DNA from: Acidobacteriota bacterium
GTDB lineage: Bacteria > Acidobacteriota > Thermoanaerobaculia > Gp7-AA8
Length of the DNA: 53,639 nt
Assembly: GCA_016184115.1 (NCBI GenBank)
Contig: JACPDH010000110.1
Location: forward strand, 1-53,639
Reading direction: 5' to 3'
Within the stretch, counting starts at the first letter, position 1, and the number at the start of each line of letters is the position of its first letter. The translations under genes were made by a program, and so were the position numbers. Below the pieces are notes generated by a model that worked only from the letters and a program-made list of their open reading frames with translations, did no database searches and was not told where the DNA came from. Of this stretch, positions 29,588-44,935 are shown piece by piece.

Positions 29588-29847
29588 GGGAGCGTCTCCT
29601 TCGTTCCGGTTTTGGATGTGCCTCCATTCTGGGTCCGCGCGCGAAAGCCTGCAAGCCACTCGACATCGGAGTGCGGAATGTTTTCCGTCGTGGGTGAGGC
29701 GAGGTCGGAAGAATGAAAAACTCGGCGCACGTCCGAAGCTGAAGGTTAGCTCCGTAAAACCTCGACAGTGACACCTCGACACCTCGACAGGGTCGGAGCT
29801 TCTGATTTCTGTTTCTTCGGGGCCGAAGCGAACGTAGGTGCGTAGGT

Positions 29848-29994
29848 GGGGTCAGGTCGGAAAAATGAAGAATTCGCGTAGTCGCGCATGGACCGCTCGC
29901 GTTCGGCTCCTGTGGCAGACGAGTCGTGTGCATGACGGACGTGTCGCCGGCGTCTGCGGTTGCGTCGAACTGTTCATTCTTCCGACCTGACCCC
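29848..29994. repeat. GGGGTCAGGTCGG-bounded element, copy 1
   Basis: The left end GGGGTCAGGTCGGAAAAATG and the right end CATTCTTCCGACCTGACCCC are inverted repeats of 22 bp with one mismatch. The core carries TCCTGTGGCAGACGAGTCGT and GTGCATGACGGACGTGTCG, also present at 38825 and 44560. A truncated end (GGTCGGAAGAATGAA) is at 29702-29717, and an extra GACCTGACCCC follows at 30007-30017. There is no coding capacity. Confidence 0.85.
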
Positions 29995-30024
29995 GGTGGT
30001 GTGAGTGACCTGACCCCAGGAGCC

Positions 30025-30080
30025 TCCGCCCCGCAGGGGCGGCGGAGAGTAGCCGGTGGCAAGCGAAGCGCCGCCACCGG
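30025..30080. repeat. GC-rich REP-like double palindrome
   Basis: CCGCCCC/GGGGCGG is followed by GGAGAGTAGCCGGTGGCAAG and a CCGGTGGC/GCCACCGG stem. The same order recurs at 44690-44760, again directly beside the GGGGTCAGGTCGG-type end, so the two repeats move or duplicate together. The spacer on to 30281 also contains CGCCCCGGAGGGGTGCC near 30100. Confidence 0.75.
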
Positions 30081-30281
30081 ATGACCGTCGAACGTTGTCC
30101 CGCGCCCCGGAGGGGTGCCGGAGCTCGACGGGCGCGAGTCGCGGCCGCGTCGACTCGAGCAGGCGCTCGAGCTCGACCGAAACTCTCCCTGGAAGCTGGC
30201 GTATAACGAACCGCTGGCTGACACTTGAATCGAGAATCGGGCGGAGCCGCTGACACTGCGACCCGCCCAGGAGAAATCGTA

Positions 30282-31625
30282 ATGACGATGTCGAAACGTG
30301 CGACGATGTTTGTGGCAATGCTCATGACGTGTGTGGCGGTCAGCCTGAGCGCCGAGCCGCAGCAGTCGCCTCAACCGGCGCACGTCGAGCCGCCGGCCGC
30401 CGTCGCGGCCTCCCCAACGGCACCATTCGACGTCGAGGGCGCGACGCGGGCCTACCTTTCGAAGCAGTCGCCCGAGGCGAAGGCAAAGTCGGATGCCTAC
30501 TTCGAAGGCGGCTACTGGCTCCAGCTCTGGAACTTCCTCTATACGCTCGCCGTCGCATGGCTCCTCCTCGGCAGCGGCCTCTCGGCACGCATGAAGCGGC
30601 TCGCGGAGAGGATCACGCAGCGTCGCTGGCTGCAGACCGGCATTTACGCGATTCAGTACTCCATCGTCGCGCCGCTGCTCGTCGCGCCGCTCACCCTCTA
30701 CGAGGGATTTTTCCGGGAGCACAAATACGGACTGGCGACGCAGACGCTTGGGGCCTGGCTCTCCGAGCAGGCGACGGTGCTCGTCGTCGAGGCGCTCCTC
30801 ATGGCAATCGCGCTCGTTCCGCTGTACGGCGTCTTCCGTAAGGCGCCGAAGCGCTGGTGGCTCTGGGGCGCCGGAGTCGGCGTCGCGTTCCTCGCTCTCG
30901 TCATGCTGATCGGGCCCGTCTACCTCGATCCGCTCTTCAATACGTACAAGCCGCTCGGGGAAGGACAAGTCCGGCAGGAGATCCTCTCGCTGGCGCGCGC
31001 GAACGGCATCGAGGCGAACGACGTCTACGAGTTCGACGCGTCGCGGCAGACGACCCGCATCTCGGCGAACGTGAGCGGCCTGTTCAACACGATGAGCATC
31101 CGGCTCAACGACAACCTTCTCGAGCGCTGCACGCTCGCGGAGATCAAGTCGGTCATGGCGCACGAGATGGGGCACTACGTGCTCCACCACGGTGGCAAGA
31201 TGATCGTCTTCTTCGGTGTGGTGCTCGTCGGCGGCTTTCTATTCGTCCGCTCGTCGTTCGACGGCGTGCGCGCGAAGTGGGGTGCGCGCTGGGGTGTCAC
31301 CGGAATCGACGACGTCTCCGGCTTTCCGCTTCTCGTCGCGCTCTTCGCCGTCTATCTTTTTGCGATCACGCCGCTGCTCAACACCTACATCCGGTCGGCA
31401 GAAGCAGAGGCGGACATCTTTGGCCTTCACGCAGCGGGGGAGCCCGACGGCTTCGCCGAGGCGGCGCTCAAGCTCGGCGATTACCGCAAGCTCGATCCGG
31501 GACCGATCGAAGAGTGGATCTTCTTCGACCATCCGAGCGGCCGCGCGCGAATTCACATGGCGATGACCTGGAAGGCGGAGCACTTGCAGGATTCGCGTGT
31601 TGCGGCCGTGAGCCAGGGCGATTAG
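30282..31625 (+). CDS. M48 (Ste24/CAAX-type) zinc metallopeptidase
   Basis: The protein has 447 residues with CAGGAG before the ATG at 30282; a second ATG lies 6 nt downstream. A signal-like N-terminus is followed by the Peptidase_M48 N-terminal membrane region (WNFLYTLAVAWLLLGSGLS; LTLYEGFFREHKYGL). The catalytic SVMAHEMGHYVLHH carries HExxH, and YIRSAEAEADIFGLH supplies the third ligand Glu. The family's membrane-bound proteases cleave prenylated or misfolded membrane proteins; in bacteria the role is probably envelope quality control. FDASRQTTRISANVSGLFNT is the conserved loop. Confidence 0.93.
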   Translation: MTMSKRATMFVAMLMTCVAVSLSAEPQQSPQPAHVEPPAAVAASPTAPFDVEGATRAYLSKQSPEAKAKSDAYFEGGYWLQLWNFLYTLAVAWLLLGSGLSARMKRLAERITQRRWLQTGIYAIQYSIVAPLLVAPLTLYEGFFREHKYGLATQTLGAWLSEQATVLVVEALLMAIALVPLYGVFRKAPKRWWLWGAGVGVAFLALVMLIGPVYLDPLFNTYKPLGEGQVRQEILSLARANGIEANDVYEFDASRQTTRISANVSGLFNTMSIRLNDNLLERCTLAEIKSVMAHEMGHYVLHHGGKMIVFFGVVLVGGFLFVRSSFDGVRAKWGARWGVTGIDDVSGFPLLVALFAVYLFAITPLLNTYIRSAEAEADIFGLHAAGEPDGFAEAALKLGDYRKLDPGPIEEWIFFDHPSGRARIHMAMTWKAEHLQDSRVAAVSQGD

Positions 31626-31637
31626 GCTCGTAGCATC

Positions 31638-32075
31638 ATGAAGATCCCGGCAGCGTTCACCCGCGCGGACAATGCGCTCCGCGCGCACGCCCTGAAGTAT
31701 CCGGATTCGTACGAGGAGTTTCCATGGGGACACCGTGCGATCAAGATCAACGGTAAGGCGTTCGTCTTCATCGCGGTCGAAGGCACGCGCTTCAGCATGT
31801 CGGTCAAGCTCCCCGGCTCGAACCTCGCGGCGCTGATGCTTCCGTTCGCCGCGCCGACCGCGTACGGCATGGGAAAGAGCGGTTGGGTGACTGCTACCTT
31901 CGGACCGAAGGACAAGATTCCGCTCGACATTCTCGAGAGCTGGATCGACGAGAGCTTTCGCGCGATCGCGCCGAAGACGCTCCTGAAGCGGATGGCTGCG
32001 GAGAGCAGCGGCGCGCCGGCGAAGAAGACGCCAAAGGCGAAGGCGGCGAGCGCTCGCGGGCGCAAGACGGAGTAG
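31638..32075 (+). CDS. MmcQ/YjbR family protein
   Basis: The protein has 145 residues. HALKYPDSYEEFPWGHRAIK, NGKAFVFIAVEG, SVKLPGSNLAALMLPFA, WVTATFG and ILESWIDESFRAIAPKTLLK match the MmcQ/YjbR (CyaY-like fold) family, thought to bind DNA, but its function is not established. A Lys/Ala-rich tail follows (KKTPKAKAASARGRK). It lies 12 bp after the protease gene and is probably co-transcribed. Confidence 0.88.
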   Translation: MKIPAAFTRADNALRAHALKYPDSYEEFPWGHRAIKINGKAFVFIAVEGTRFSMSVKLPGSNLAALMLPFAAPTAYGMGKSGWVTATFGPKDKIPLDILESWIDESFRAIAPKTLLKRMAAESSGAPAKKTPKAKAASARGRKTE

Positions 32076-32253
32076 GGTCATACGTCAGTTCGTTTCCGCG
32101 TCCGCGCCATCACCGCGACGCGGAATTCGCGACGCCTTCCTTCTGCTGATTTGGAGAAACCGTCACCTCGCCCCGTTCGCAGACTCTATACGGATGGGAG
32201 CGGCTCGGGCTCGAGGCGCTCGCCGTGTGGAGCGACGAACAGAAAGGCAGACG

Positions 32254-33789
32254 ATGAGCGACGCAGAGGAGAGTCTCGGTCCCGATCTCGCGAGGGGAGT
32301 GCCCCTCGCCGACATTCCTGACGGCGGCTCGCTCGTCGGTCACGTCGGAGAGGAGAACGTCCTCGTGGTTCGGCGCGGCGGCGAGTTTTTCGCCGTATCG
32401 AATCGATGCTCCCACTACGGCGGGCCGTTGAACGAGGGGCTGGTCGTCGGGGAGACAGTGCGATGCCCCTGGCACCACGCCTGTTTCAGTCTCCGCACGG
32501 GCGAGCCGCTCGGCGCTCCGGCCTTCCAGGCGATCGCGAGCTGGCTCACGGTAGTCGAAGACGACAGCGTCTTCGTCCGGGTGGCCCGCGAGCCGGCGTC
32601 GCGACCGCGGCGCCACGACGGCCCCGAATCGGTCGTCATCGTAGGCGGCGGGGCCGCGGGGCACATGGCGGCTGAGACGCTGCGCCGCGAGGGCTACGGC
32701 GGCCGTGTCGTCGTCGTGTCGGCCGACGCCTCCGCGCCGTACGACCGGCCTAACCTCTCGAAGGACTATCTCGCGGGCAACGCCCCCGAGGAGTGGATCC
32801 CGCTTCGCGACGAGTCGTTCTACCGGGACAACGAGATCGAGCTGCGTCTCGCGTCGCGTGCGACGACGATCGATGCCGCGCGGAAACAGTTGGTGCTCGA
32901 AGGGGGCGCTGCGCTCCCGTACGGATCTCTGCTTCTCGCGACTGGCGCGGAGCCGGTGCGGCTCGACATCCCCGGGGCGGAACGTGTGGCGTACCTCCGC
33001 ACGCTTGCCGACAGCCGGGCGATCGTCGCGCGCGCGGCGACGGCGTCGCGCGCCGTGGTGATCGGCTCGAGCTTCATCGGGCTCGAGGTCGCGGCGTCGC
33101 TCCGTGCGCGCGGGCTCGACGTGACGGTGGTGTCGCCTGACGACGTTCCGCTCGCGCGCACGTTCGGGCCGGAGGTTGGCGGTTTCATCCGCGCGTTGCA
33201 CGAGGAGCATGGCGTCCGCTTCGAGCTGCGCGAAAAGGTGGTCGAGGTCCGTCCCGCATCGGTCGTTCTTTCGAGCGGCGCGGAGCTGCCGGCCGACCTC
33301 GTCGTCGCCGGAATCGGCGTGAGTCCGTCGCTCGCGCTCGCGGAGAGCTGCGGCGCGCGAATCGATCGTGGAGTGGCCGTCGACCGGTACCTCGAGACGA
33401 GTGTTCCGGGCATTTTCGCGGCGGGAGACATCGCGCGCTGGCCCGATCCTCACAGTGGCGAGAACATCAGGGTCGAGCACTGGGTCGTGGCCCAGCGGCA
33501 GGCGCGCGTCGCGGCACGGAACATGCTCGGGCTCCGCGAACCGTTCGCGGCGGTGCCGTTCTTCTGGAGCGCCCACTACGACGTCGTGCTCGCCTACGTC
33601 GGCCACGCGAGCAGCTGGGATCGCGCCGATCTGACGGGAGACCTCGCGTCGCGCGACGCGCGCGTCGACTACTCGCGCGGTGGGAAGCTCCTTGCGGTCG
33701 CGACGCTGTTCCGCGACCGGGAGAGCCTCGAGATCGAGGCGGAGATGGAGCGCCGCGCGAGGCAGCTCGAGCAAACCGGCGGGCGCTGA
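32254..33789 (+). CDS. Rieske-ferredoxin/FAD-dependent oxidoreductase fusion
   Basis: The protein has 511 residues starting at an ATG after AAAGGCAG. An N-terminal Rieske domain carries the 2Fe-2S ligands CSHYGGPL and CPWHHACF. The pyridine-nucleotide-disulfide oxidoreductase part follows: FAD motif VVIVGGGAAGHMAAETLRRE, PYDRPNLSKDYL, NAD motif VVIGSSFIGLEVAASLRARG, and GIFAAGDIARWPD. A C-terminal ferredoxin-reductase-like domain (FFWSAHYDVVLAYVGHA) ends it. The architecture matches AIFM3/ferredoxin reductase-like proteins, which pass electrons from NAD(P)H to an iron-sulphur partner. No oxygenase gene is adjacent, so the partner is unknown. Confidence 0.93.
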   Translation: MSDAEESLGPDLARGVPLADIPDGGSLVGHVGEENVLVVRRGGEFFAVSNRCSHYGGPLNEGLVVGETVRCPWHHACFSLRTGEPLGAPAFQAIASWLTVVEDDSVFVRVAREPASRPRRHDGPESVVIVGGGAAGHMAAETLRREGYGGRVVVVSADASAPYDRPNLSKDYLAGNAPEEWIPLRDESFYRDNEIELRLASRATTIDAARKQLVLEGGAALPYGSLLLATGAEPVRLDIPGAERVAYLRTLADSRAIVARAATASRAVVIGSSFIGLEVAASLRARGLDVTVVSPDDVPLARTFGPEVGGFIRALHEEHGVRFELREKVVEVRPASVVLSSGAELPADLVVAGIGVSPSLALAESCGARIDRGVAVDRYLETSVPGIFAAGDIARWPDPHSGENIRVEHWVVAQRQARVAARNMLGLREPFAAVPFFWSAHYDVVLAYVGHASSWDRADLTGDLASRDARVDYSRGGKLLAVATLFRDRESLEIEAEMERRARQLEQTGGR

Positions 33790-33811
33790 GCCGAGGTGCC
33801 GGCCGGGCGTA

Positions 33812-34082
33812 GTGTTCCGTCCGTGAATTGGGCGCAGTTTCGTTGCGGTTCCTCCGGGCCGAGCGCGCGGAGCGCCGACGCAGGCGATGTGGGACATCGT
33901 AGAGGAGGCGCGACAACGCGAACGGCCCGAAGGAACCGCAACCCTTCGGGCTGGTGGCGGTTGTGCCGCGATCTCGTCGTCGCTCGTCGTCGACGATGTC
34001 GCCACATCGCCTCCTCCTCGCTCCTCGATCTCGCAGCGCAAGCGTCACCAGCGAAATTGCGCCGAATTCGCGGACGGAACAC
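33812..34082. mobile_element. 271-bp MITE-like element flanked by TA
   Basis: The ends are inverted repeats: GTGTTCCGTCCGTGAATTGG at the left, and at the right the complement of GTGTTCCGTCCGCGAATTCG; 27 of 30 positions match counting the flanking A. TA dinucleotides lie at 33810-33811 and 34083-34084, as expected for insertion by IS630/Tc1-mariner transposases. A second inverted pair (GGCGATGTGGGACATCGT near 33882 and its near complement near 33996-34013) lies inside. No transposase is encoded. Confidence 0.8.
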
Positions 34083-34098
34083 TAGCGCGATCGCCGGC

Positions 34099-34782
34099 CT
34101 AACGGGCTCTCGGCGGCCGCTCCGCGATCGCCTCGAATACCGCGGCGACGATCCTGTCGCAGCGCGCCCCGAGGAATGTGAAGAGATTCGAGCGGGTGAG
34201 ACCTGCGCGATCGAACAATCCGGCGCGAAGGCGCTCACGGGCGCGCGAGAGCCGCGTCTTGATGACGTCCTCGCTCACGTCGAGCAACTGCGCGGTGTCG
34301 GAAGTATCGAGCCCTTCGATCTCGCGAAGCATGAAGACGACACGGTACGCATCGGGGAGCGCGCCGATCTCCGCTTCGAGCGTCTCGCGGAGCTCGGAGT
34401 TGATGGCCTCGCGCTCCGGATCGATCGAGACAGGATCGGAGAGCTCCATCGCGCTCTCTCCGAGCGACTCCAGGGGTTGGCGCTTGCGCAACCGCGCGTA
34501 CGCCTCGTAGACCGCAATGCGCGTCAGCCACGTTGCGAAGCTCGATCGCGACTCGAACTGCGCGAGGTGCGCGTAGGCGTTGATGTAGGCCTGCTGCACC
34601 ACATCCTCGGCCTCGTCACGGTGGCGCACGATCGCGAGCGCGGCGCGGTAGAGCCGCTGGTTGTGGCGCCGCATCAGCACTTCGAAGAGCGGTAGATCAC
34701 CGGCAACGACGCGCGCGACGATCTCTTCGTCCTCGAGAGGATGCCGCATCACCGATTCGAGCTCCAGCCTGACGACGTTCAT
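34099..34782 (-). CDS. ECF-type RNA polymerase sigma factor
   Basis: The protein has 227 residues. Region 2: PLFEVLMRRHNQRLYRAALA, RDEAEDVVQQAYINAYAHL and RSSFATWLTRIAVYEAYARL. Region 4: ALPDAYRVVFMLREIEGLDT followed by DVSEDVIKTRLSRARERLRA. It directs RNA polymerase to specific stress or envelope promoters. The ATG at 34782 follows GGAGG with 5-nt spacing; an ATG at 34794 with an upstream GAGG is also possible. No anti-sigma gene is adjacent. It diverges from the DoxX-folE-cytochrome operon, which it may control. Confidence 0.92.
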   Translation of the reverse strand: MNVVRLELESVMRHPLEDEEIVARVVAGDLPLFEVLMRRHNQRLYRAALAIVRHRDEAEDVVQQAYINAYAHLAQFESRSSFATWLTRIAVYEAYARLRKRQPLESLGESAMELSDPVSIDPEREAINSELRETLEAEIGALPDAYRVVFMLREIEGLDTSDTAQLLDVSEDVIKTRLSRARERLRAGLFDRAGLTRSNLFTFLGARCDRIVAAVFEAIAERPPRAR

Positions 34783-34853
34783 TCCGACCTCCATGAAAGC
34801 AACCTCACGCGAGTGAGAGTCCTTCCCTCAACGGAGTCGCCGGCGGCCGAAAG

Positions 34854-34878
34854 GTGACAACTGCAAGTTCCCTGTCAC
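34854..34878. promoter_or_regulatory. inverted repeat between the sigma factor and the DoxX-folE operon
   Basis: GTGACA at 34854-34859 and TGTCAC at 34873-34878 form a 6-bp perfect dyad with a 13-nt centre, in the 139-bp divergent promoter region. It is a candidate operator for both directions. No binding protein can be named. Confidence 0.4.
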
Positions 34879-34921
34879 TAATCGCAGCGCCCCCGACTCT
34901 CTATTCGCGAAGGAGAAAGAG

Positions 34922-35338
34922 ATGAACGAATCACTGATCAAGCCGTACTGGGCGCTCCGCATCGGACTCGGGGCGAGCGCATTCCTCGCGGGCCTCGACA
35001 AGTTCTTCAGCATTCTCGCGCAGTGGGACATGTACCTGAGCCCTCTCGTTGCGAAGCTGATCCCGATCGATTCCTCGCTGCTCATGCGCGTCTTCGGCGT
35101 CGTCGAGATGGCGGTCGGCCTCTCTATTCTCTTCGGCGCGACGCGCGTCGCCGCCTGGGTCGCGTCGGCATGGCTCCTCGCAATTGCGGCGAATCTCGTC
35201 ACAACCGGAAGCTTCTTCGACGTCGCGGTGCGCGACGTGAACATGGCGATCGCGGCGATGGCGCTCGCACGCCTTGACGCGCTCCGATCGCCGGAGCGTC
35301 AGCCGCTGGCCGTCACCACATCAGCTCGAGCGGTATGA
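34922..35338 (+). CDS. DoxX-like small membrane protein
   Basis: The protein has 138 residues and four hydrophobic segments: WALRIGLGASAFLAGLDKFF, the VFGVVEMAVGLSILFGATRV pair, and AAWVASAWLLAIAANLVTTG. The Leu-Asp-Lys-Phe motif and general layout match the DoxX/DoxD-like family. It has a GAAGGAG ribosome binding site. It is the first gene of an operon that includes folE and a di-haem cytochrome, suggesting a redox role. The exact function is unknown. Confidence 0.75.
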   Translation: MNESLIKPYWALRIGLGASAFLAGLDKFFSILAQWDMYLSPLVAKLIPIDSSLLMRVFGVVEMAVGLSILFGATRVAAWVASAWLLAIAANLVTTGSFFDVAVRDVNMAIAAMALARLDALRSPERQPLAVTTSARAV

Positions 35339-35363
35339 ACACTTTAGGAAAGGAGACAGGAAA

Positions 35364-35702
35364 ATGACGAAGAACTTCATACGAGCGCTGTCGTTTGCCG
35401 CGTTGCTGGTCCCTGCCGCGGCGTGGGCCGATAGCTGGAAGTCGGTTCCGCTCATCGACACGATGTGTCGGGAGCGCTATGAGGGCAAGACCGATGAACA
35501 CACGACCGCCTGCGCGCTGCAGTGCGCAAAGGGGGGATACGGCATTGTCGTCGACAAGACGTACGTTCCGTTCGACGAAAAGGGGAACGCGCTCGCGCTT
35601 GCCGCGCTCAAAGCGACTAAGAAGAGGGACTCGCTTCGGGTGACGGTCGAAGGAACGATCGAGAGCGGAACTCTCCACGTCGCGAAGCTGGCGATCGACT
35701 GA
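35364..35702 (+). CDS. small exported protein
   Basis: The protein has 112 residues starting at an ATG after AAAGGAGACAGG. The signal peptide is ALSFAALLVPAAAWA. The mature protein has DTMCRERYEGKTDEHTTACA, LQCAKGGYGIVVDKTYVPFD and LRVTVEGTIESGTLHVAKL, with three Cys (C-x15-C-x3-C). The pattern suggests a small metal- or disulfide-containing OB-like fold. I do not recognise a characterised family. It lies 25 bp after the DoxX-like gene. Confidence 0.8.
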   Translation: MTKNFIRALSFAALLVPAAAWADSWKSVPLIDTMCRERYEGKTDEHTTACALQCAKGGYGIVVDKTYVPFDEKGNALALAALKATKKRDSLRVTVEGTIESGTLHVAKLAID

Positions 35703-35713
35703 GAGGAGGCGTC

Positions 35714-36301
35714 ATGACCGATCGCCTTGCGCTCGCTCCAATGCGCGTCAGCCTAACCGAGGCCGAGCGTGCCGTCGCGACGCTCCTCGAATACGTCGGG
35801 GAAGAGCCGTCGCGTGACGGGCTGCGCGACACGCCGGCCCGCGTCGTGCGGGCGATGCGCGAGCTCACCTCGGGGTACGACGACGACCCGGCGCAGATTC
35901 TCTCGCGGACGTTCGACGAGTCGAGCGACGAGCTGATCATGCTTCGCGACATTGCCTTTCACTCGACCTGCGAACACCACCTGCTCCCGTTCCACGGAAC
36001 AGTTTCGATTGGCTACCTTCCAGGCAAGGTCGTCGGTATCAGCAAGCTGGCGCGCCTCGTCGACTGCTTCGCGAGACGGCTTCAGATCCAGGAGCGCATG
36101 ACCAACCAGATCGCTCGCGCGATCGAAACCCATCTCGAGTCGAGAGGCACCGGCGTCATCGTTTCGGCGCGCCATCTCTGCATGGCCTGCCGGGGCGTGC
36201 GAAAGGAGTCGACCGCAATGGTCACGTCGGCGATGCTCGGCGCGCTCCGCGCGGATGCGGCCTCGCGCGCCGAGTTCCTCCGCCTCACATCGATGTCCTG
36301 A
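35714..36301 (+). CDS. folE: GTP cyclohydrolase I
   Basis: This 195-residue type IA enzyme converts GTP to 7,8-dihydroneopterin triphosphate, the first step to folate or tetrahydrobiopterin. The zinc ligands are in FHSTCEHHLLPFHGTVSIGY (Cys, His) and SARHLCMACRGV (Cys). It has GISKLARLVDCFARRLQIQERMTNQI in two consecutive blocks and a closing KESTAMVTSAMLGA. It is an ordinary length. It lies 11 bp after the exported-protein gene, inside an envelope/redox operon and not with other folate genes. Confidence 0.96.
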   Translation: MTDRLALAPMRVSLTEAERAVATLLEYVGEEPSRDGLRDTPARVVRAMRELTSGYDDDPAQILSRTFDESSDELIMLRDIAFHSTCEHHLLPFHGTVSIGYLPGKVVGISKLARLVDCFARRLQIQERMTNQIARAIETHLESRGTGVIVSARHLCMACRGVRKESTAMVTSAMLGALRADAASRAEFLRLTSMS

Positions 36302-36313
36302 AGGAGAAATGCA

Positions 36314-37159
36314 ATGAATGCGAACGGGTACAGGGGCTTCGGACCCCTGTCAGTGCTGTTGCTCTCTCTCGCGTTGCCTGCCGCGGCGATCGAGAGCGTC
36401 TACGTCATTCCCGCGGCCGCGCATGTGCGAGGTCTCGCCGGTTCGGAGTGGATGACCGATCTCGTGTTGCACAACCCCGGCTCCGCCGCGGTGACGATCG
36501 ACGTTGCTCTCGTGCGAAGTGGAGCCGCTGCCCTGGTCGCGTCCGGCCTCGAGACGCTCGGCGCCGCAGTCGTCGCTCCGGGCCAGACGGTGCTGCTCGC
36601 GGACCTGTTAGGTTCGGCGCTTTCCGCAGACGCGAGCGGGGCGCTGATTCTCAGCGGGACGGGTCCGTTCACGGCGACGAGCCGGACGTATGTCGAGCGG
36701 CCCGACGGTACGCGCGGAACCGCGATTTCGGTCGCTCGCGTGTTCATCGACGAGAGCGAGCCGAGCGCGTTGCTTTCGGGCGTCAGAGTCGAGGGGCGTT
36801 ACCGGACCAACATCGGGATCTTCGCGCTCGCGGACGGTGAAGATCGGCTCGAGATCGAAGTGACGATTGGAGGCGCGGTCATTCAACGGCTCGTTGTGCC
36901 CGCTGGAACGTTCGCACACGCGCAGCTTCCCGTCGAATCGACCGGGGGATCCGGCGTCGCGACCGCGACCGTCGGGATTGTCGCGGGGCAGGGGTTCGCG
37001 ACCGCGTACGCGTCGGTCATCGACAACGGAAGTGACGACGCGACGCTGATCGAGCCGGTCGCGTTTGAATCTGAACCGGCGGCGCGCCGCGGGAACGCCG
37101 ATGTGGAGCTGAGGCTCCGGCGAGCGCTGGGTCATACGGATCCTGGAGGTGATCGATGA
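36314..37159 (+). CDS. secreted protein of unknown function
   Basis: The protein has 281 residues with a signal peptide ending LALPAAAIES and AAGGAG before the ATG. The beta-rich mature part has GSEWMTDLVLHNPGSAAVTI, then FTATSRTYVERPDGTRGTAI and TNIGIFALADGEDRLEIEV. This layout (short strand, W-x-TD-x-x-x-x-NP, then SRTY) resembles the protein at 39163-40314, so the two are diverged relatives. The C-terminus is charged. The stop overlaps the ATG of the cytochrome gene (ATGA). Confidence 0.75.
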   Translation: MNANGYRGFGPLSVLLLSLALPAAAIESVYVIPAAAHVRGLAGSEWMTDLVLHNPGSAAVTIDVALVRSGAAALVASGLETLGAAVVAPGQTVLLADLLGSALSADASGALILSGTGPFTATSRTYVERPDGTRGTAISVARVFIDESEPSALLSGVRVEGRYRTNIGIFALADGEDRLEIEVTIGGAVIQRLVVPAGTFAHAQLPVESTGGSGVATATVGIVAGQGFATAYASVIDNGSDDATLIEPVAFESEPAARRGNADVELRLRRALGHTDPGGDR

Positions 37160-38502
37160 AGAGCCAGAGAGTCTTTCTTCGCGGGCTGCTTGCCGGCCTA
37201 TTCACTGGGCTCGCGCTTCTTTGGGCCGGGCTCTCGTCCGAAGCGGGGATCGGCGACCGGCTGAGCCAGCGGATGCTCGACGCGAAGGTCGAGAGCGACG
37301 CGCAACGTTCGCTCGCGCGCGGGCGTGCCAGCTTCAGGAGTGACACCTTCGGTGACGAGTCGTTCTGGAGCGGAAAGCTGCGCCTTCACGAAGCGCTCGC
37401 CGGCGAGGCGAACGGAGGAGTCGGTCCCGGCGTGAGCCCTGCGACGGCACTCGCCGTCGGTCTGAAAGTCGATGCCGAGGCGCTCCCCGATGCCCTGAAG
37501 GCGAAGATCGTGCGAGGTGAAGTCGACCTGCAGTCACCTGCGACGACGCTGGCGCTTCTTTCTCTCGACTCGGTCGTGGGTGTAAAGGGTACCTTCGGTG
37601 GTGATGGCAGGCTCGAGGCGGTAGGGATCACTTGCGCCGCGTGTCACTCGACGGTCGATGACAGCTTCGCTCCAGGCATCGGGCGGCGTCTCGACGGTTA
37701 TGCGAATCGCGACCTCAATGTCGGCGCGATCATTGGGCTCGCTCCCGACCTATCGGCCTTCACCTCGCATCTCGGCGCGGACGAAGCGACCGTGCGACAG
37801 GTGCTCGCGAGCTGGGGCCCTGGAAAGTTCGACGCCGCGCTGCTTCTCGATGGGAAAGCGTTCCGTCCCGACGGCAAGTCGGGCGCGACGCTCATTCCGC
37901 CCGCGTACGGACTCGCCGGGGTGAATCTCCACACGTCGACCGGCTGGGGCTCGGTGACGCATTGGAACGCCTTCGTCGCGAATCTCGAGATGAACGGCAA
38001 GGGGAACTTCTACGACCCGCGACTCGACGATCCGGTAAAGTTCCCGCTCGCGGCGCGGTCACGCATGGGCCACGTGCGGACGGACGACGACCGGATCACG
38101 CCCGCGCTCGCGGACCTTCAGTTCTATCAATTGGCACTTGCCGCGCCGCGTCCTCCGCAGGGCTCGTTCGATCAGGAGGCCGCGACGCGTGGCGGAACGA
38201 TCTTCTCCGGTAAGGCCGATTGCGCGCGATGCCACGTTCCTCCGATCTACACCGATCCCGGGTGGAACATGCACCGCGGCGAGGAGATCGGGATCGACGA
38301 ATTCCAGTCGAGTCGCGCTCCGGACGACGCCTATCGCACGACACCTCTTCGCGGCCTCTGGGCGCACCAGAAAGGAGGCTTCTACCACGACGGCCGATTC
38401 GCATCGCTCGACGACGTGGTCGGCCATTACGACGCGTTCTTCAGGCTCGGCCTAACTACCGACGAGAAGCGCGACCTCATCGAGTTCCTCAAGTCGCTGT
38501 AA
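37156..38502 (+). CDS. exported di-haem cytochrome c (peroxidase/MauG-like)
   Basis: The protein has 448 residues with an N-terminal signal anchor (LLAGLFTGLALLWAGLS). Two haem-binding sites are present: CAACH about one third along and CARCH about residue 355. SFWSGKLRLHEALAG and TTPLRGLWAHQKGGFYHDGR with DDVVGHYDAFFRLGLTTDEK match the cytochrome-c-peroxidase-like family. It probably acts in the periplasm in peroxide reduction or protein oxidation. It is translationally coupled to the preceding secreted protein. Confidence 0.87.
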   Translation: MKSQRVFLRGLLAGLFTGLALLWAGLSSEAGIGDRLSQRMLDAKVESDAQRSLARGRASFRSDTFGDESFWSGKLRLHEALAGEANGGVGPGVSPATALAVGLKVDAEALPDALKAKIVRGEVDLQSPATTLALLSLDSVVGVKGTFGGDGRLEAVGITCAACHSTVDDSFAPGIGRRLDGYANRDLNVGAIIGLAPDLSAFTSHLGADEATVRQVLASWGPGKFDAALLLDGKAFRPDGKSGATLIPPAYGLAGVNLHTSTGWGSVTHWNAFVANLEMNGKGNFYDPRLDDPVKFPLAARSRMGHVRTDDDRITPALADLQFYQLALAAPRPPQGSFDQEAATRGGTIFSGKADCARCHVPPIYTDPGWNMHRGEEIGIDEFQSSRAPDDAYRTTPLRGLWAHQKGGFYHDGRFASLDDVVGHYDAFFRLGLTTDEKRDLIEFLKSL

Positions 38503-38560
38503 CGGGAACGTCTGTCGAGAACGCTTTGTGTGCTCGAGCGCGCGGAACGTGGAGCATTGT

Positions 38561-38590
38561 GTGAGGCTGGCGATCCGCCGCCAGCCTCAC
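38561..38590 (+). terminator. perfect 12-bp hairpin after the cytochrome operon
   Basis: GTGAGGCTGGCG, ATCCGC loop, CGCCAGCCTCAC lies 58 bp after the last stop. No T tract follows, so it may end transcription weakly or protect the 3' end. Confidence 0.5.
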
Positions 38591-38720
38591 TCGCCGTCCC
38601 CCCGTGTTCCTCCGGCGTCGGGGGTGTCGCATATTGTGCCGTCCAGGCTCCGCTACGCTCTGCCTGCGCGGGCGGGTTCCTTCGGATCGGAGGATGATCA
38701 CCGTCGGTGGGGTCATCGGT

Positions 38721-38969
38721 GGGGTCAGGTCGGAAAAATGAAGAATTTGCGTGGGGTCATCGGTGGGGTCAGGTCGGAAAAATGAAGAATTCGCGAAGGC
38801 GCGCATGGATCGTTCGCGCTCCGGTCCTGTGGCAGACGAGTCGTGTGCATGACGGACGTGTCGCTCGCCTCTGCCATGGGCGCCGAATTATTCATTTTTC
38901 CGACCTGACCCCAATGGCATTCGACCTGACCCCAATGGCATTGAATTGCTATTTTTCCGATCTGACCCC
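38721..38969. repeat. GGGGTCAGGTCGG-bounded element, copy 2, with repeated ends
   Basis: The left end occurs twice in tandem (38721-38742 and 38765-38786). The right end CATTTTTCCGACCTGACCCC (38893-38912) is followed by two degenerate copies, GACCTGACCCC at 38923 and CCGATCTGACCCC at 38957. The core again carries TCCTGTGGCAGACGAGTCGT and GTGCATGACGGACGTGTCG. Nothing coding was seen from 38591 to 39162. Confidence 0.85.
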
Positions 38970-39162
38970 AATGGCCGTAAGGCAGCATAGTTGAATGGGC
39001 TCTCTCGGATCCGAACGGGGGCAGTCGAGGCAACGCGATTTCGGGGACGGCGTTGAGCTGACCTGGAAGCAGCGTAATGCTGCATTCCTCGGTATGCTCG
39101 GTTGTACGCGGCGAATTCACGCCGCACCGGATCGCGTTCTGTGATGGCGGGTCACGACAACC

Positions 39163-40314
39163 ATGAAGACTCCGGAGCGATTATTCATACTTCTTTGCGT
39201 CGTTGTGTTCGCGTTTGCGATTCCTACTTCAGCTCAGGTCGATCCTAGCGAGGACGACAGTCGAATGTTCGCCGGCACTTCCGTTCTCTTGCCGGTCGTT
39301 GGGCGATCGGCTGGAGCAAACGGATCGTTCTGGAAGACTGACGTCTTCATCACGAATGTCTGGCGCACCGGTCCGCCGGTTCCGGTGACAATCAAGCTCC
39401 TTCGGAGTGGACTGCCAGCGAAAGCGCACTCGTTTGAGGTTTCCCCGCTCGAGACGGTTGCGATGGAAGACCTCATCTTGAAGACCTTCGGTGAGGAAAC
39501 TGCGTCGGGTGCGTTGCTCGTCAGCAGCGACCAGAACGGAGCTCGGTTCTCGGCACGTGCGCGCATCTTCAACAGTGGGAATTCGATGGGCGAGTTTGCA
39601 CAGAGCGCGCAGGCGGTCTCGGTCTCGCGCCTGCCCGTGGAGAGCGTGCTTGCAGGATTGGATGGAACGCGAGGAAAACGCGTCAATCTTGGATTGGCGA
39701 ATCCCCGATCGAGCGACGCCGAAGCGGTCGTACGGCTTTTTCGCGCCGATGGAGAGCTCGTTAGGACTCAGTCGGTCTCGGTCCCGGCCGAGCGCATGAT
39801 TCAGATTAACGATATCTTCATGTGGTTCAACGTCGAGGCCTTTGCGGGGGCCACTCTGGTCATCGGCGGCCGCTTAGAGTTTCTCACGCACCCTGGCCAA
39901 TTCGAACCAGCTCCCATCTCGGTCTACGCCTCCGAGATCCTGAGTGGAAGCGGTGATCCAATCTTCATCGCTGCGGTCGGCGACGATCCGATGGTCCAGG
40001 ATCCCGAGCTCGCACCTCCTTGTGAGACTCCCGCGGAATACGATCAGCATGAGGATCCCGTTGGTGACGTCTTCGTAGGCGTCCGCGAGGGAAACGACGT
40101 GACTCTGGTGGCATACGATCTCGCCGGCAAGTACCACTTTCTTCCGTCATCGATTTTCACGCCAGACAGCTTCGTCGCCAGTCTGCCACCAGAGACAATC
40201 GCCGCGATTCGCTGCGATCCGCGGGTGGATCACGTCACTGAGAATGGGTGGGCCTACCCGCTGACCACCGTCCAGGCGCTTCGATTGAAGGCCGCTGGCG
40301 CCGAAAAGCCCTAG
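39163..40314 (+). CDS. secreted protein with a possible I9-like C-terminal domain
   Basis: The protein has 383 residues with a signal peptide ending AIPTSAQVD. The first 280 residues resemble the secreted protein at 36314 (WKTDVFITN and a LGLANPRSSDAEAVVRLF repeat). The last 85 residues (GDVFVGVREGNDVTLVAYDL; then FVASLPPETIAAIRCDPRVD) look like the inhibitor I9/subtilisin-propeptide fold, in which a final strand ends in DPRVxxVE. No protease is attached. The stop codon lies inside a palindrome (40312-40369). Confidence 0.7.
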   Translation: MKTPERLFILLCVVVFAFAIPTSAQVDPSEDDSRMFAGTSVLLPVVGRSAGANGSFWKTDVFITNVWRTGPPVPVTIKLLRSGLPAKAHSFEVSPLETVAMEDLILKTFGEETASGALLVSSDQNGARFSARARIFNSGNSMGEFAQSAQAVSVSRLPVESVLAGLDGTRGKRVNLGLANPRSSDAEAVVRLFRADGELVRTQSVSVPAERMIQINDIFMWFNVEAFAGATLVIGGRLEFLTHPGQFEPAPISVYASEILSGSGDPIFIAAVGDDPMVQDPELAPPCETPAEYDQHEDPVGDVFVGVREGNDVTLVAYDLAGKYHFLPSSIFTPDSFVASLPPETIAAIRCDPRVDHVTENGWAYPLTTVQALRLKAAGAEKP

Positions 40315-40369
40315 GGAACCTCTGAACAAGTTGGATGGGGACCCATCGACTTTGTTCATAGGTTCCCTA
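40312..40369. repeat. TA-bounded 56-bp imperfect palindrome supplying a stop codon
   Basis: AGGGAACCTCTGAACAAG at 40313 and its near complement TTTGTTCATAGGTTCCCT ending at 40368 are inverted repeats with no spacer. TA begins and ends the palindrome (TAGGGAACC, GGTTCCCTA). The T at 40312 plus the first two bases make the TAG stop of the upstream gene. It resembles fused ends of an insertion element and could also stop transcription. The remaining spacer to 40499 holds no gene. Confidence 0.8.
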
Positions 40370-40499
40370 TCGCAGCTCGGGTTGAGGGATCAGGGCTTCT
40401 CTTTTGGCGCGCATCCGCCCGCGCAACCATCGCGCCGGGAGCGCCTCGTCGAGGCGATCGACACACTTTCCCCGCCCCCGACTTCGTGATCGTGAAGTG

Positions 40500-43400
40500 C
40501 TACTCACCCGTCTCGAAGACGTACCGGAAGGTCACGTCAGCGGATGCGTGCCCCGAATCGGTACTGACCCGAATCATCAGCGTGTCGCCGAGAATGCCTC
40601 CCGGAATGGGCAGCTTGATCAGCCGCGAGTCGTGAGAGTTTTTCGGAGACGCGCTGGCGATGGAGAGGCCACCTCCGGAACGATCCGCGCCTCCCGACGC
40701 TGGGTGAGTGAAAATCCCGCTCTCCATTCCGCCGCCTTGCGGGACTACCCATGCCGAGAGCTCGCAGTGAGGCCCCAGGGCACCTCGCTCGTTCGTGAAG
40801 CCCGTGCTGCCCGCGTCGGCCAGCTCCAGCGTTACCGCGACCTCGGTACCGGGAGAGAGCGTCTGCCCGGGGTGATCCCACGTCGCCACGGAGCGTTCCC
40901 GCGTCGTTCGCGCGGGAGGGCCGGAGATTTGAGCCATGATCGTCAGCTCTGCGGACGTGGGCGCTAGGACGATGTCGGCTGTACTCGGGGACTCCCCCGG
41001 AATGGGCGGCGAGACGCGCTTATCCTGGATGGTCTCTCTGAGCATCCAGACTCCTCTGGACGGCGTGGCCGCGTCGACCTCAGTCTCAACCGCCGCCGTA
41101 ACCTGGTCCTTCGCAAGGAGAACGCCTTTCCGATTGAAAAGCTGAATGGAAACGGGGTGGTCCCCATGGTCAGCCAGGGTAAAGGAGGCCGCCGAGGTCG
41201 CGTCCTCGGTCTGCAAGGGCTTCGCCTGGCCCGGCCATAACCACTGGAAACGATAGGTTCCGGCAGGACGCGCCGCGGCGTGGAATTCGAACGTCTCCCC
41301 AGGTGGGGCGATGAGGCGCCTTGGCGTGATTACGACTTCCGCCTTCTCGACGGTGACCTCAGCCGTGGCGCTGGAAAGCACTTTGCCGTCGTGAAGCAAT
41401 CCGACTTTCAGAACATGCTTCAACGGCTCATCCTCCTTCCGAACACCGGGCGCGGGCTCGTAGACGTGGTCGAGGGTGATCTCCGCCTTCCCGTCGACCA
41501 CCTTCGCTTTCTGCTTCCCCTTCGAGCTCTTCTCGTAGTCGCCGAAATCGAATTCGAAGGTCACCTCGGAAATCGCCGGGGAAAGTGACGTGGCAGTCAC
41601 GTCGAACTCGTACTTCTCATACCCTTTGGCGTTCTCGATCCGGTTTGGTTCGATCTTCAGTCCCCCAGTAGAGAGCTTGACGGCCCAGATGGCCGCGGTG
41701 CCGTTCTTGCCGACGGTCATCGTGCGATGGGCCACGTTCTCCCACGCCTCGTCTTTCATCCGTTGAATGGTCAAGTCGGTTTTCGCGTCGGAGACCGAGC
41801 CGTTCGCCGTCACGAAGTAGAGGATGTCGCCGTTGCTGCCAGACAGCTCATAAGTTTCCGGATGACACTCTTCGATCAAGAGAAGCGGCGTGTCTCGCTC
41901 GGTTAGGCGCTCCCTGCCATCCTCTGTTCTAAAGATTGAGACCTTTTTGAGGCGCTCTTGTCCCGTTTTGGTCTGATAGACCCTCAGAACGGTTTCCTTC
42001 TCATCGATCGTGACGACATCGCTCCAGTCGGCCGCGACATTGGCGTTTTGGGGATTGCCGAAACTCGACAATTGCAGTCCAGCGTGTCGTAGAAGCCAGA
42101 CGGAAAAATCGGCGTAGCAGTCGTCGAAGGAGCGGTCGGTTCTTCTCTCGAGTCGCTTGCGCAGCGGAACCAGCGGGTCGGAGACCTGGTCCGCCGCGAC
42201 GGCGTCCAACAGTTCCTTGATTCTGAAACCCTGAGTTTCCACGAGATATCGGACGAAAATCGGCGCCAGGTACTCGTGGTCGAGTCCACCGACGAGCGAG
42301 CTCGTCTGCGCGATCTTCCCCGTCGCATTGATCGGAACGTGCAGGAACTTCGACCCGATCCGCTGGGTGAGCGAAGGGGATTCCTTCTCCCAGCCCGATC
42401 GGTCGGGGATCTTCGCCAGGTCGTGCGCCGCCCACTCCGCGGTTGCCTCCCTCCACCACTTGTGAGGTGTTCCCGTCCACGCGATCATCACGCCGTAGTA
42501 CGGCCGCTGGATCACGTGAAAGAGCTCGTGAGCGAGGAGCGCCTTGAATGTAAGGAAGTGTTCCTCGAACGTCCCGCGGCCGCTGGTTACCGGGTCGAAG
42601 AACTCGAGCTTCAGGATTTCGGTCGGCAGATGGATCGTGTCCCAAAACGTCTCGTGGGCCATCTCTCCCTGTTGGGCGTAATAGTTGTAGAGGGAGTCGA
42701 CCTTGACCTTCACGTAGCGGGTGTAGATGTGAACCCCGCCGATTCCCTTCTGTGTCGGATCGGGGAAGCCCGCTTCGACGTACCGTTCGAGCGACTTCTC
42801 GAAGATGTACGCGATGTCTTGCACGGCGGCGGCACACTTCGGATCGTACCCGTCGATCACGTAGAGACTTGCCGGCGCGATCGCTTTCTTCCACTGGTCG
42901 TCGGGAAACGTCTTTCGTAGCGCCTTGTCCGAGTAGAGGATCCGGATCTTATGGTTCCGCGAGACGTACTTGTCGTTCGCCCACCGTTCCGCGACCTCGG
43001 CGATCGCTCCACCCGCAACCGTGACGATCGCGGCGGTCGTCCCCAGGCCCGTGAGCGAAAACCCGGTCCAGAACGCGGAGAGATGGTCAGTGATCAGGTA
43101 GACGGTGTGGTTAGGCGCATCCACGCGATAGAAAAGATCCACCCACCTGTGGCTTTGCTCGTCCCACCGTACCGGAGCGAAGTTGGCGTCGACCGGGATG
43201 CGCGGATCCAGCTTGGTCGGATCGAAAGGAATGCCGATCTCGATGGGCTCGTCCAACTGCTCCATGCCTTCGATCGAGACGTCGATCACGTCCACAGTCT
43301 CGAAAGGACTCTCCTGGTAAACCGCCGCATCCTTCACTCGCGAGACCGTGAGTGTTCGTGTTCGCCGCACGAGGCCGGCGGGAAGCGCAACCGAAATCCC

Positions 43401-44024
43401 GGCGTCGGATTTGACGATCTGTCGGACGTTCGAAGGTGCGATCTCCGTCTGGAGGAGTACTGTGGCCACCGGGGACTTGACCGTGAACGGCACGGAATCG
43501 ACTTCTCGGTTTCCGTCGAAGAGACGAAGTGAGGCCGATGGACGATCGAGCGGCAGCTGTACGCCCAGGCAGTGCGTCCCGAGCACGCTGAACGAGAGGG
43601 GAACATCGCCGTAGCGAATGCCGAGACGGCCTGGATCGGCCATCCTCTTCACGTCGACGACGACATACGACCCTGCTGGTCCCTCCTTCGGGAAATAGTC
43701 ATCAATTTCCGGCGAGCGAGTGCGAGTGAAGAACCAGGCGACAACTGTACCGATCGCCAGGACCGAAAGAAGAGTGAGGAAGAAAGGGGCGAACCGGCGC
43801 TTCGGGCGTGGAAGAGTTTCCAGCGGATCGTCTGTGACGCAGCGCAGGGAGCCGATCGTACTCGCCGGAGTCCATGCGCCGAGAGACTCGGACCAGATGA
43901 GGTCGTCGGGGTAGATCTGGCCGTCGCCTCCCATGTGCCAAACCTCGTCCCACGTGTAGGGTCCGTACTGCTGCCCTTCACGCCAAAGGAAGAAGGGGTC
44001 CTCGACGTCAGGCGATGCTGCCAC
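40500..44024 (-). CDS. very large GYF_2/metallopeptidase-like/PKD-like membrane protein
   Basis: The protein has about 1174 residues. An N-terminal GYF_2 domain (FFLWREGQQYGPYTWDEVW) is followed by one membrane helix (FFLTLLSVLAIGTVVAWFF) and a long exported part. An IPT-like region follows, then ALLAHELFHVIQ at about 498-509 with WWREATAEWAAHD about 20 residues later, a plausible gluzincin zinc site. A PKD-like domain (FEFDFGDYEKSSKGKQKAKV) and more beta domains follow. The protein probably processes or binds envelope proteins. The GTG at 44024 is chosen because an ATG at 44129 adds 35 Cys/Arg-rich, noncoding-like residues; neither has a ribosome binding site. Confidence 0.75.
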   Translation of the reverse strand: MAASPDVEDPFFLWREGQQYGPYTWDEVWHMGGDGQIYPDDLIWSESLGAWTPASTIGSLRCVTDDPLETLPRPKRRFAPFFLTLLSVLAIGTVVAWFFTRTRSPEIDDYFPKEGPAGSYVVVDVKRMADPGRLGIRYGDVPLSFSVLGTHCLGVQLPLDRPSASLRLFDGNREVDSVPFTVKSPVATVLLQTEIAPSNVRQIVKSDAGISVALPAGLVRRTRTLTVSRVKDAAVYQESPFETVDVIDVSIEGMEQLDEPIEIGIPFDPTKLDPRIPVDANFAPVRWDEQSHRWVDLFYRVDAPNHTVYLITDHLSAFWTGFSLTGLGTTAAIVTVAGGAIAEVAERWANDKYVSRNHKIRILYSDKALRKTFPDDQWKKAIAPASLYVIDGYDPKCAAAVQDIAYIFEKSLERYVEAGFPDPTQKGIGGVHIYTRYVKVKVDSLYNYYAQQGEMAHETFWDTIHLPTEILKLEFFDPVTSGRGTFEEHFLTFKALLAHELFHVIQRPYYGVMIAWTGTPHKWWREATAEWAAHDLAKIPDRSGWEKESPSLTQRIGSKFLHVPINATGKIAQTSSLVGGLDHEYLAPIFVRYLVETQGFRIKELLDAVAADQVSDPLVPLRKRLERRTDRSFDDCYADFSVWLLRHAGLQLSSFGNPQNANVAADWSDVVTIDEKETVLRVYQTKTGQERLKKVSIFRTEDGRERLTERDTPLLLIEECHPETYELSGSNGDILYFVTANGSVSDAKTDLTIQRMKDEAWENVAHRTMTVGKNGTAAIWAVKLSTGGLKIEPNRIENAKGYEKYEFDVTATSLSPAISEVTFEFDFGDYEKSSKGKQKAKVVDGKAEITLDHVYEPAPGVRKEDEPLKHVLKVGLLHDGKVLSSATAEVTVEKAEVVITPRRLIAPPGETFEFHAAARPAGTYRFQWLWPGQAKPLQTEDATSAASFTLADHGDHPVSIQLFNRKGVLLAKDQVTAAVETEVDAATPSRGVWMLRETIQDKRVSPPIPGESPSTADIVLAPTSAELTIMAQISGPPARTTRERSVATWDHPGQTLSPGTEVAVTLELADAGSTGFTNERGALGPHCELSAWVVPQGGGMESGIFTHPASGGADRSGGGLSIASASPKNSHDSRLIKLPIPGGILGDTLMIRVSTDSGHASADVTFRYVFETGE

Positions 44025-44178
44025 GGTGGATCGATTCTGGCACGGCGAGCCGGCTGCGACAGGTGACGCGGAACACCTCGACGCTTGCGCTCGGAGATGC
44101 GCGGAGATTCGGAGATGAGGACCGAACATGGGGACCGTACATGAGGATCAATGGCGTTAACTTAGTGAGAAAGAGGCC

Positions 44179-44272
44179 GAAGTTAGAACGTAGAGCGATG
44201 AAATGCGAACCCAGAAACGTAAGCGCGGGGCCTTTTCTGGGTTCGCATTTCATCGCTCTACGTTCTAACTTC
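44179..44272. repeat. heptad-repeat hairpin, copy 4, with perfect 39-bp arms
   Basis: The left arm 44179-44217 reads GAAGTTA, GAACGTA, GAGCGAT, GAAATGC, GAACCCA, GAAA. The right arm 44234-44272 is its exact reverse complement over 39 positions, with a 16-nt loop. It lies upstream of the large GYF_2 protein gene. Confidence 0.95.
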
Positions 44273-44536
44273 AGCCGTTGTTCCCTTAAGTAAAGGCCAT
44301 TGGGGCATGGGGACGGAGGATCTGGCTTCTGCGGACCGCGGAGGAGGGGACGCGGAGGTGGGGACGGAGCTTCTGGTTTCTGGGAGGTGTCGTGGGAGCG
44401 ATTGGCGGGGACGCGATGATGTTGCGCCGAGGGAGCGCCGAGCGGCTCGAGCCGATGCACAGTGCGATCCGGTGCGCTGATTCCACTCGTATCAGCAAGG
44501 ACTTTGCAGCCAGAGGCGTTCGGGCCGGCGTGAAGA

Positions 44537-44935
44537 GGCGCATGGACCATTCGAGCTCTGGTCCTGTGGCAAACGAGTCGTGTGCATGACCGACATGTCG
44601 CCCGCGTCTGCGGTGGGCGTCGAACTGTTCATTCTTCCGACCTGACCCCAGATGTGTGTGACCCCAGTGGTGTGAGTGACCTGACCCCAGAGGCCTCCGG
44701 CCCGCAGGGGCGTCGGAGAGTAGCCGGTGGCAAGCGAAGCGCCGCCACCGGTGGCATTTGCGAGAATTGTTCCGCGCGCCGGAGGGGCGCCGGAAACCAA
44801 ACGGCTCCGACAATCATCCCTCCGGCGCCCCTCCGGGGCGCGTATGAATCTCATCCCGGCGATCCGGTGGCGGCATCCCGCGTTGCGGGACTTGCCACCG
44901 GTTACTCTCCGTCGCCCCTCCGGGGCGCGGATGAG
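44537..44935. repeat. GGGGTCAGGTCGG-type element, copy 3 (left end lost), plus paired REP-like palindromes
   Basis: The core (TCCTGTGGCAAACGAGTCGT, GTGCATGACCGACATGTCG) and right end CATTCTTCCGACCTGACCCC (44630-44649) are present, but no left end is found. REP-like palindromes then run to 44935: GGAGAGTAGCCGGTGGCAAG near 44715 faces its near complement CTTGCCACCGGTTACTCTCC near 44890, so two copies are inverted. Several GCCCCTCCGGGGCGC palindromes lie between. No coding capacity was seen. Confidence 0.8.

Follow-up and report, generated by a model that had tools for sequence, protein, structure and literature searches.

Besides genes whose Pfam matches include a TonB-dependent receptor, an M48 peptidase, a GYF-domain protein and protein kinases, the window, i.e. 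the whole stretch of 53,639 nucleotides that was analysed (G000:C18, from an acidobacterial genome of 4.42 Mb in 126 contigs), contains three related non-coding elements at about 29847-29994, 38703-38970 and 44538-44650 (Table 1). In a Pfam scan of ten open frames of the window none of the frames overlaps any copy. The elements have in common a core of about 90 bp and inverted ends of 29-30 bp, the left end being absent from copy 3, and the tip motif of these ends, GGGGTCAGGTC, is found 11 times in the window with at most one mismatch, as compared to a mean of 1.41 and a maximum of 4 in 100 shuffled sequences. A match at 13618-13628 is isolated and was left out of the family.

Table 1. Positions of the three elements and of their additional ends in the window.
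Feature	Positions	Strand	Description
Incomplete end lacking GGGG, upstream of copy 1	29702-29724	+	87% identical to 29854-29876
Copy 1	29847-29994	+	Left arm 29848-29876, core, right arm 29966-29994; inverted repeat of 29 nt, 90% complementary
Extra right end of copy 1	30007-30017	-	Perfect match to GGGGTCAGGTC
Left end array of copy 2	38703-38794	+	Full ends at 38721 and 38765, preceded by a 7-letter tip at 38709
Copy 2 proper	38764-38913	+	Innermost arms 38764-38793 and 38884-38913, core; inverted repeat of 30 nt, 97% complementary
Two further right ends of copy 2	38915-38975	-	38923-38933 and 38959-38969; flank unit ATGCCATT or GGCCATT
Copy 3	44538-44650	+	Core with right arm, no left arm
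Extra right end of copy 3	44678-44688	-	Exact motif match; 16-nt repeats at 44643-44697

Copy 2 is 85% identical to copy 1 over 175 bp and to copy 3 over 122 bp, and copies 1 and 3 are 83% identical over 258 bp, a similarity that continues through a GTAG-tagged palindrome (GTAGCCGGTGGC...GCCACCGG) located beside both of them and identical at 30049-30080 and 44720-44751. The single-stranded folds of copies 1 and 2 surpass those of 200 shuffled sequences (z -5.94 and -9.19, respectively). On the left side of copy 2 the array comprises a 44-nt tandem (38707-38750 and 38751-38794, 98%), and on its right side there are three ends in all, the outermost with one mismatch. The motif excess over shuffles and the pairwise identities of 83-85% bear out the initial annotation, which had described three related elements with inverted ends, and the left arm is indeed absent from copy 3, as it had stated. 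Its ends of 22 bp are inverted, but the arms measure 29-30 nt, and the "doubled" ends of copy 2 are multiplied to a greater extent than this term suggests, i.e. to two full left ends plus a 7-letter tip and three right ends. That ends multiply is true for copy 2, but the repeated unit there is the tip together with local flank, with truncated tips. The extra right ends of copies 1 and 3, the likeness of these two copies through the GTAG palindrome and the partial end upstream of copy 1 had been missed. A fourth copy of the core is present in the same genome (C27:27484-27629), being 72% identical over 150 positions and having CCGAT outside both tips. The inner end sequence is missing from the majority of single GGGGTCAGGTC sites in this genome, and these were treated as background.

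A search with PF01797 revealed eight Y1 genes in this genome, and, as the initial annotation had proposed to look for, one of them is flanked by the same kind of ends. This gene, located on another contig (C19), codes for a Y1 (HUH) protein of 347 amino acids and lies between ends that read GGGGTCAGGTCGGAAAAATGAAGAATTCG on its left and ATTTCATTTTTCCGATCTGACCCC on its right; GGGGTCAG, which fits GGGGWSAS, flanks it on both sides. Two further Y1 genes have ends of their own, both of the GGGGTCA type: those of the gene on C59 are 36 nt long, 92% complementary and start with CATTGGGGTCAGACCC, those of the gene on C34 are 29 nt long, 100% complementary and start with TGGGGTCACACCG, the left end being present in triplicate. 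The translation of the C19 gene contains the motifs NHYH, FQ and YIVLNP, and Pfam at E values up to 10 lists Y1_Tnp alone, with a match that spans 107 residues, and no HTH.

The surroundings of these genes contain additional structures. C19 also carries a second end type (GGGGTCAGGTCTTC...) as well as two copies of a longer non-coding element of about 460-500 bp with the same ends (L017 6335-6790 and 10627-11121), which are 96% identical over 482 bp and have an inner hairpin (TCGAACCTGTACT...AGTACAGGTTCGA). The C19 transposase unit is separated from the next element by a pair of genes for a MazE-like antitoxin and a PIN-domain toxin (L017 5463-6402), and in three of four plasmid stretches (L130, L131, L132) a related transposase adjoins a toxin-antitoxin gene or pair. 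On C61, copies of the ends are interspersed with GC-rich repeats about 65 nt long (GCGAACCCCGCGCTGACGCGC...GGCGCCGCTGCCGCGGCGC; L018 4590-5300).

The TIRYT group, as given in the accessible part of Di Nocera et al. (2013, PMC3733652), has Y1 genes flanked by long terminal inverted repeats whose ends read GGGGWSAS, and the accessible part of Quentin et al. (2018, PMC6006769) equates it with subclass 2.1 of the TnpA-Y1 proteins; in the literature searched, these are the sole papers that name TIRYT, and both call for functional tests. As in the TIRYT/TIRtron system of PMC3733652, the C19 gene has HUH and tyrosine motifs (NHYH, YIVLNP), matches PF01797 and is surrounded by terminal inverted repeats that fit GGGGWSAS, and gene-less dispersed ends occur as singles, dimers and groups, here represented by the window copies, the C27 copy and the pairs in other genomes. 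In line with subclass 2.1 as outlined in PMC6006769, the protein shows NHYH, FQ and Y..LNP-type motifs, its core lacks the insertion of subclass 2.3, as judged from the length of the Y1_Tnp match, and no REP is found at the gene. In contrast to that subclass, its length exceeds the median of 238 residues, and YIVLNP comes near the Y motifs tabulated there but does not coincide with any of them. Subclass 2.1 is described with a C-terminal HTH or DnaA_C-like domain; in the C19 protein Pfam gives no match to an HTH. The enzyme superfamily, HUH/Y1, is shared with IS200/IS605, but the latter, in the same source, has subterminal hairpins and a short TnpA, whereas here 29-30-nt terminal inverted repeats go along with a long protein. 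As the C19 enzyme fits TIRYT better than the classical REP transposases, the elements of the window are most likely its passengers and carry no gene of their own.

The initial annotation had named a REP-associated Y1 transposase as the likely mobiliser; the Y1 kind holds, the strict REP association does not, since the ends have no GTAG foot and fit TIRYT. The corresponding reading, that the elements are classical REPINs, i.e. inverted pairs of REP sequences mobilised by a RAYT that recognises GTAG, appears very unlikely to us. It would agree with the NCBI model for REP-associated tyrosine transposases, which the C19 protein passes with 85.2 bits at a cut-off of 80, with a weak similarity to the solved TnpA-REP chain 4er8 (E 0.0005) and with the GTAG palindrome adjoining copies 1 and 3; on direct reading of the ends, however, no GTAG foot is found at the tips, long terminal inverted repeats surround the C19 gene, and the GTAG repeat brackets a different Y1 gene. 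The latter is located on C117, where the first 12 letters of the palindrome occur five times around the gene (L025 5235-6310), three times on the left and twice, inverted, on the right, and codes for a protein with YIDRQEEHH, similar to subclass 1.2, which is listed as devoid of REP in the accessible part of PMC6006769. Compared to REPINs as described in the available text of Bertels and Rainey (2011, PMC3116915), the elements are likewise hairpin-forming inverted pairs, non-autonomous and found in clusters that include flanking sequence, but they have no GTAG unit, and whereas REPIN clusters repeat whole REPINs, here tips and a few flank bases are repeated.

Relatives of the C19 transposase (E up to 1e-30) are present in 55 of 396 genomes of the phylum. 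As 331 of the 396 genomes contain at least one GGGGTCAGGTC match, low counts mean little and only high counts are informative. Among the genomes with at least 20 matches 15 of 16 have a relative, as compared to 40 of the 380 others (Fisher p 3e-13; motif and homologue listings were inspected by eye to obtain the counts at this threshold). The exception is G054 with 101 GGGGTCAGGTC copies and no close relative of the C19 gene, whose single Y1 match is not bracketed by the motif. Plus and minus ends on the two sides of the gene within 600 bp were observed at 18 of 31 gene loci (30 from the homologue search, one of them the gene of this genome, and L043), in agreement with the kind of mobiliser that the initial annotation had guessed; random 900-bp placements in the window were bracketed in none of 20,000 cases. 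Motif bracketing is absent at 13 of the 31 loci, some of which are cut by contig ends and some of which may use other ends. A further scan of contigs yielded as sole relative an Acidobacteria MAG with 50% identity.

The inner end sequences vary between genomes and largely match within one element, and close inverted pairs of 45-202 bp are numerous, with 99 in stretches of G146 (36), G246 (29), G270 (19), G392 (10) and G320 (5). One related element of G246 (L150 668-759) has no counterpart at the corresponding site of G392, G029 and G278: the sequences that match its two flanks are separated there by 20, 28 and 54 bases, respectively, as compared to 149-183. At identities of 73-78% this empty site is not exact, and the alignment to G392 does not settle the junction. 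The window copies themselves showed no sign of movement. Taken together, the window elements are very probably miniature, gene-less transposons that share their end family with a TIR-associated Y1 (HUH) transposase, with the C19 gene as their mobiliser, an assignment that extends to identity and mobiliser and not to array formation. The assignment of the mobiliser is based on the common ends, three pairs of genes and ends, the co-occurrence across genomes and the one related element that is absent in relatives. Cutting of single-stranded DNA is the known chemistry of HUH/Y1 enzymes; based on this chemistry, the enzyme would recognise the GGGGTCAGGTC-type tip, cut the single strand at or near the boundary of flank and tip and move the hairpin-forming element DNA.

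A short non-coding core within inverted ends would also be typical of a MITE mobilised by a DDE transposase. We regard this as highly improbable, as the gene that the PF01797 search located between these ends codes for a Y1 enzyme and direct target duplication shows no excess over shuffles in the pairs of three sets of relatives, G246 plus G392, G270 and G146 (p 0.81, 0.40 and 0.28; the window copies are too few). What is shared outside the tips is of another kind: 17 of the 29 G246 pairs have at least four inverted letters in common just outside both tips (shuffle mean 2.6, maximum 9; loci L133-L166 and L170, G246 and G392), including TTCAAAAT in 4 of the 17 and GCGGAA in several. These common flanks may be longer ends of subfamilies; in within-subfamily shuffles of the pooled G246 and G392 pairs, inverted flanks are still significant (p <= 0.002), in G392 alone they are not significant (p 0.14), and G270 and G146 do not show inverted shared flanks. 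The inverted flanks of G246 would be accounted for if the elements insert into targets that are palindromic or form hairpins.

Many tips of the family in this genome are preceded by an outward series of units that consist of a flank unit and a truncated tip. Upstream of L017 4140, for instance, CGGGT is followed by 2, 4, 7 and 30 tip letters, and upstream of L168 291 in G029 TGAAC occurs nine times, followed by 7, 1, 2, 1, 1, 4, 9, 21 and 21 tip letters. The flank unit differs at most loci and thus looks like local DNA rather than like a part of the element. In the window, clear arrays are restricted to copy 2; the left side of copy 1 shows one unit whose tip is reduced to a single letter, and at the extra right ends of copies 1 and 3 the flank units have diverged. 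Growth of the tips towards the element is seen at L017 4140 and L017 5433 and is broken at L017 11121, L048 and L062, so that this rule was dropped. Pairing between flank and inner end as a guide to the target looked suggestive at L050, L070 and L111 and is not claimed.

In order to quantify the arrays we scored whether the last five flank letters followed by GG recur within 80 bases outward, with swapped flanks as control and with duplicates and ends too near the edge of a stretch removed. Such recurrence was found at 14 of 24 ends of the family in this genome (swapped flanks 0.67, maximum 3), at 11 of 14 ends in G029 (1.88, maximum 5), where the input consisted of 10 of the 11 exact sites and four ends of the gene locus L052, and at 2 of 10 ends in G320 (0); as several ends of one array were scored separately, 14/24 and 11/14 are numbers of ends, not of independent events. 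The other sites of this genome gave 1 in 38, and none was found among 61 ends in G246, 20 in G392, 43 in G270 and 83 in G146, i.e. 0 of 207 sampled ends; the stretches of these four genomes and of G320 were chosen mainly for close plus and minus ends, so that their rates apply mostly to paired copies. Other settings resulted in 0-1 hits in G246, G392 and G270, none in G146 and 12-14 of 24 in this genome. In 55 outward units from 29 arrays, hand-picked by eye, tips of 7 letters (GGGGTCA) and of 2 letters are the most frequent with nine units each, where short lengths (0-2) may be due to chance. Owing to the selection by eye, a proportion such as 22 of 29 among these arrays does not represent a rate.

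The arrays may be the product of ordinary replication slippage or template switching at the foot of the hairpin, or partly of assembly error, and would then be uninformative on the transposase, a reading that we consider to have nearly an even chance. The units are short, variable tandem repeats beside a hairpin-forming element, the genomes in the array test are drafts of many contigs, and similar elements in G246, G392, G270 and G146 have no arrays. On the other hand, elements that seem equally foldable lack arrays in other lineages, the tip of seven letters is one of the two commonest in the hand-picked units, and two of four complete plasmid records (Iodobacter fluviatilis and Skermanella rosea) contain one reiterated unit each, which argues against a pure assembly artefact.

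Alternatively, the arrays might be written by the transposase, which we put forward tentatively and regard as possible rather than probable. After insertion the boundary of flank and tip might, with less certainty, be re-opened and re-copied, giving rise to units of local flank and truncated tip. The predicted substrate of the C19 enzyme is a single strand of flank plus GGGGTCAGGTCGGAAAAATGAAG, which would be cut at the boundary and also after GGGGTCA. Under this scheme of repeated cutting, each failed round would add flank and a shortened tip, often ending after GGGGTCA, and the inverted flanks of G246 would reflect palindromic or hairpin targets handled by the same chemistry.

The enzyme group is already known and the elements are otherwise ordinary in nature, whereas the arrays of truncated tips are the informative oddity. 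Graded truncated tips set these arrays apart from TIRYT/TIRtron as described in the accessible part of PMC3733652, and no account of them was found in the literature searched, largely open-access main texts; the 18 papers in which the tip 11-mer occurs on either strand include none about these elements, judging by title and abstract. The genome provides a clean set of gene, miniatures and ends, plus two more gene/end pairs. If slippage makes the arrays, they are a warning against scoring ends as insertions; if the enzyme makes them, they would be a readable trace of its activity, in which each array counts attempted transpositions and records the positions of cutting.
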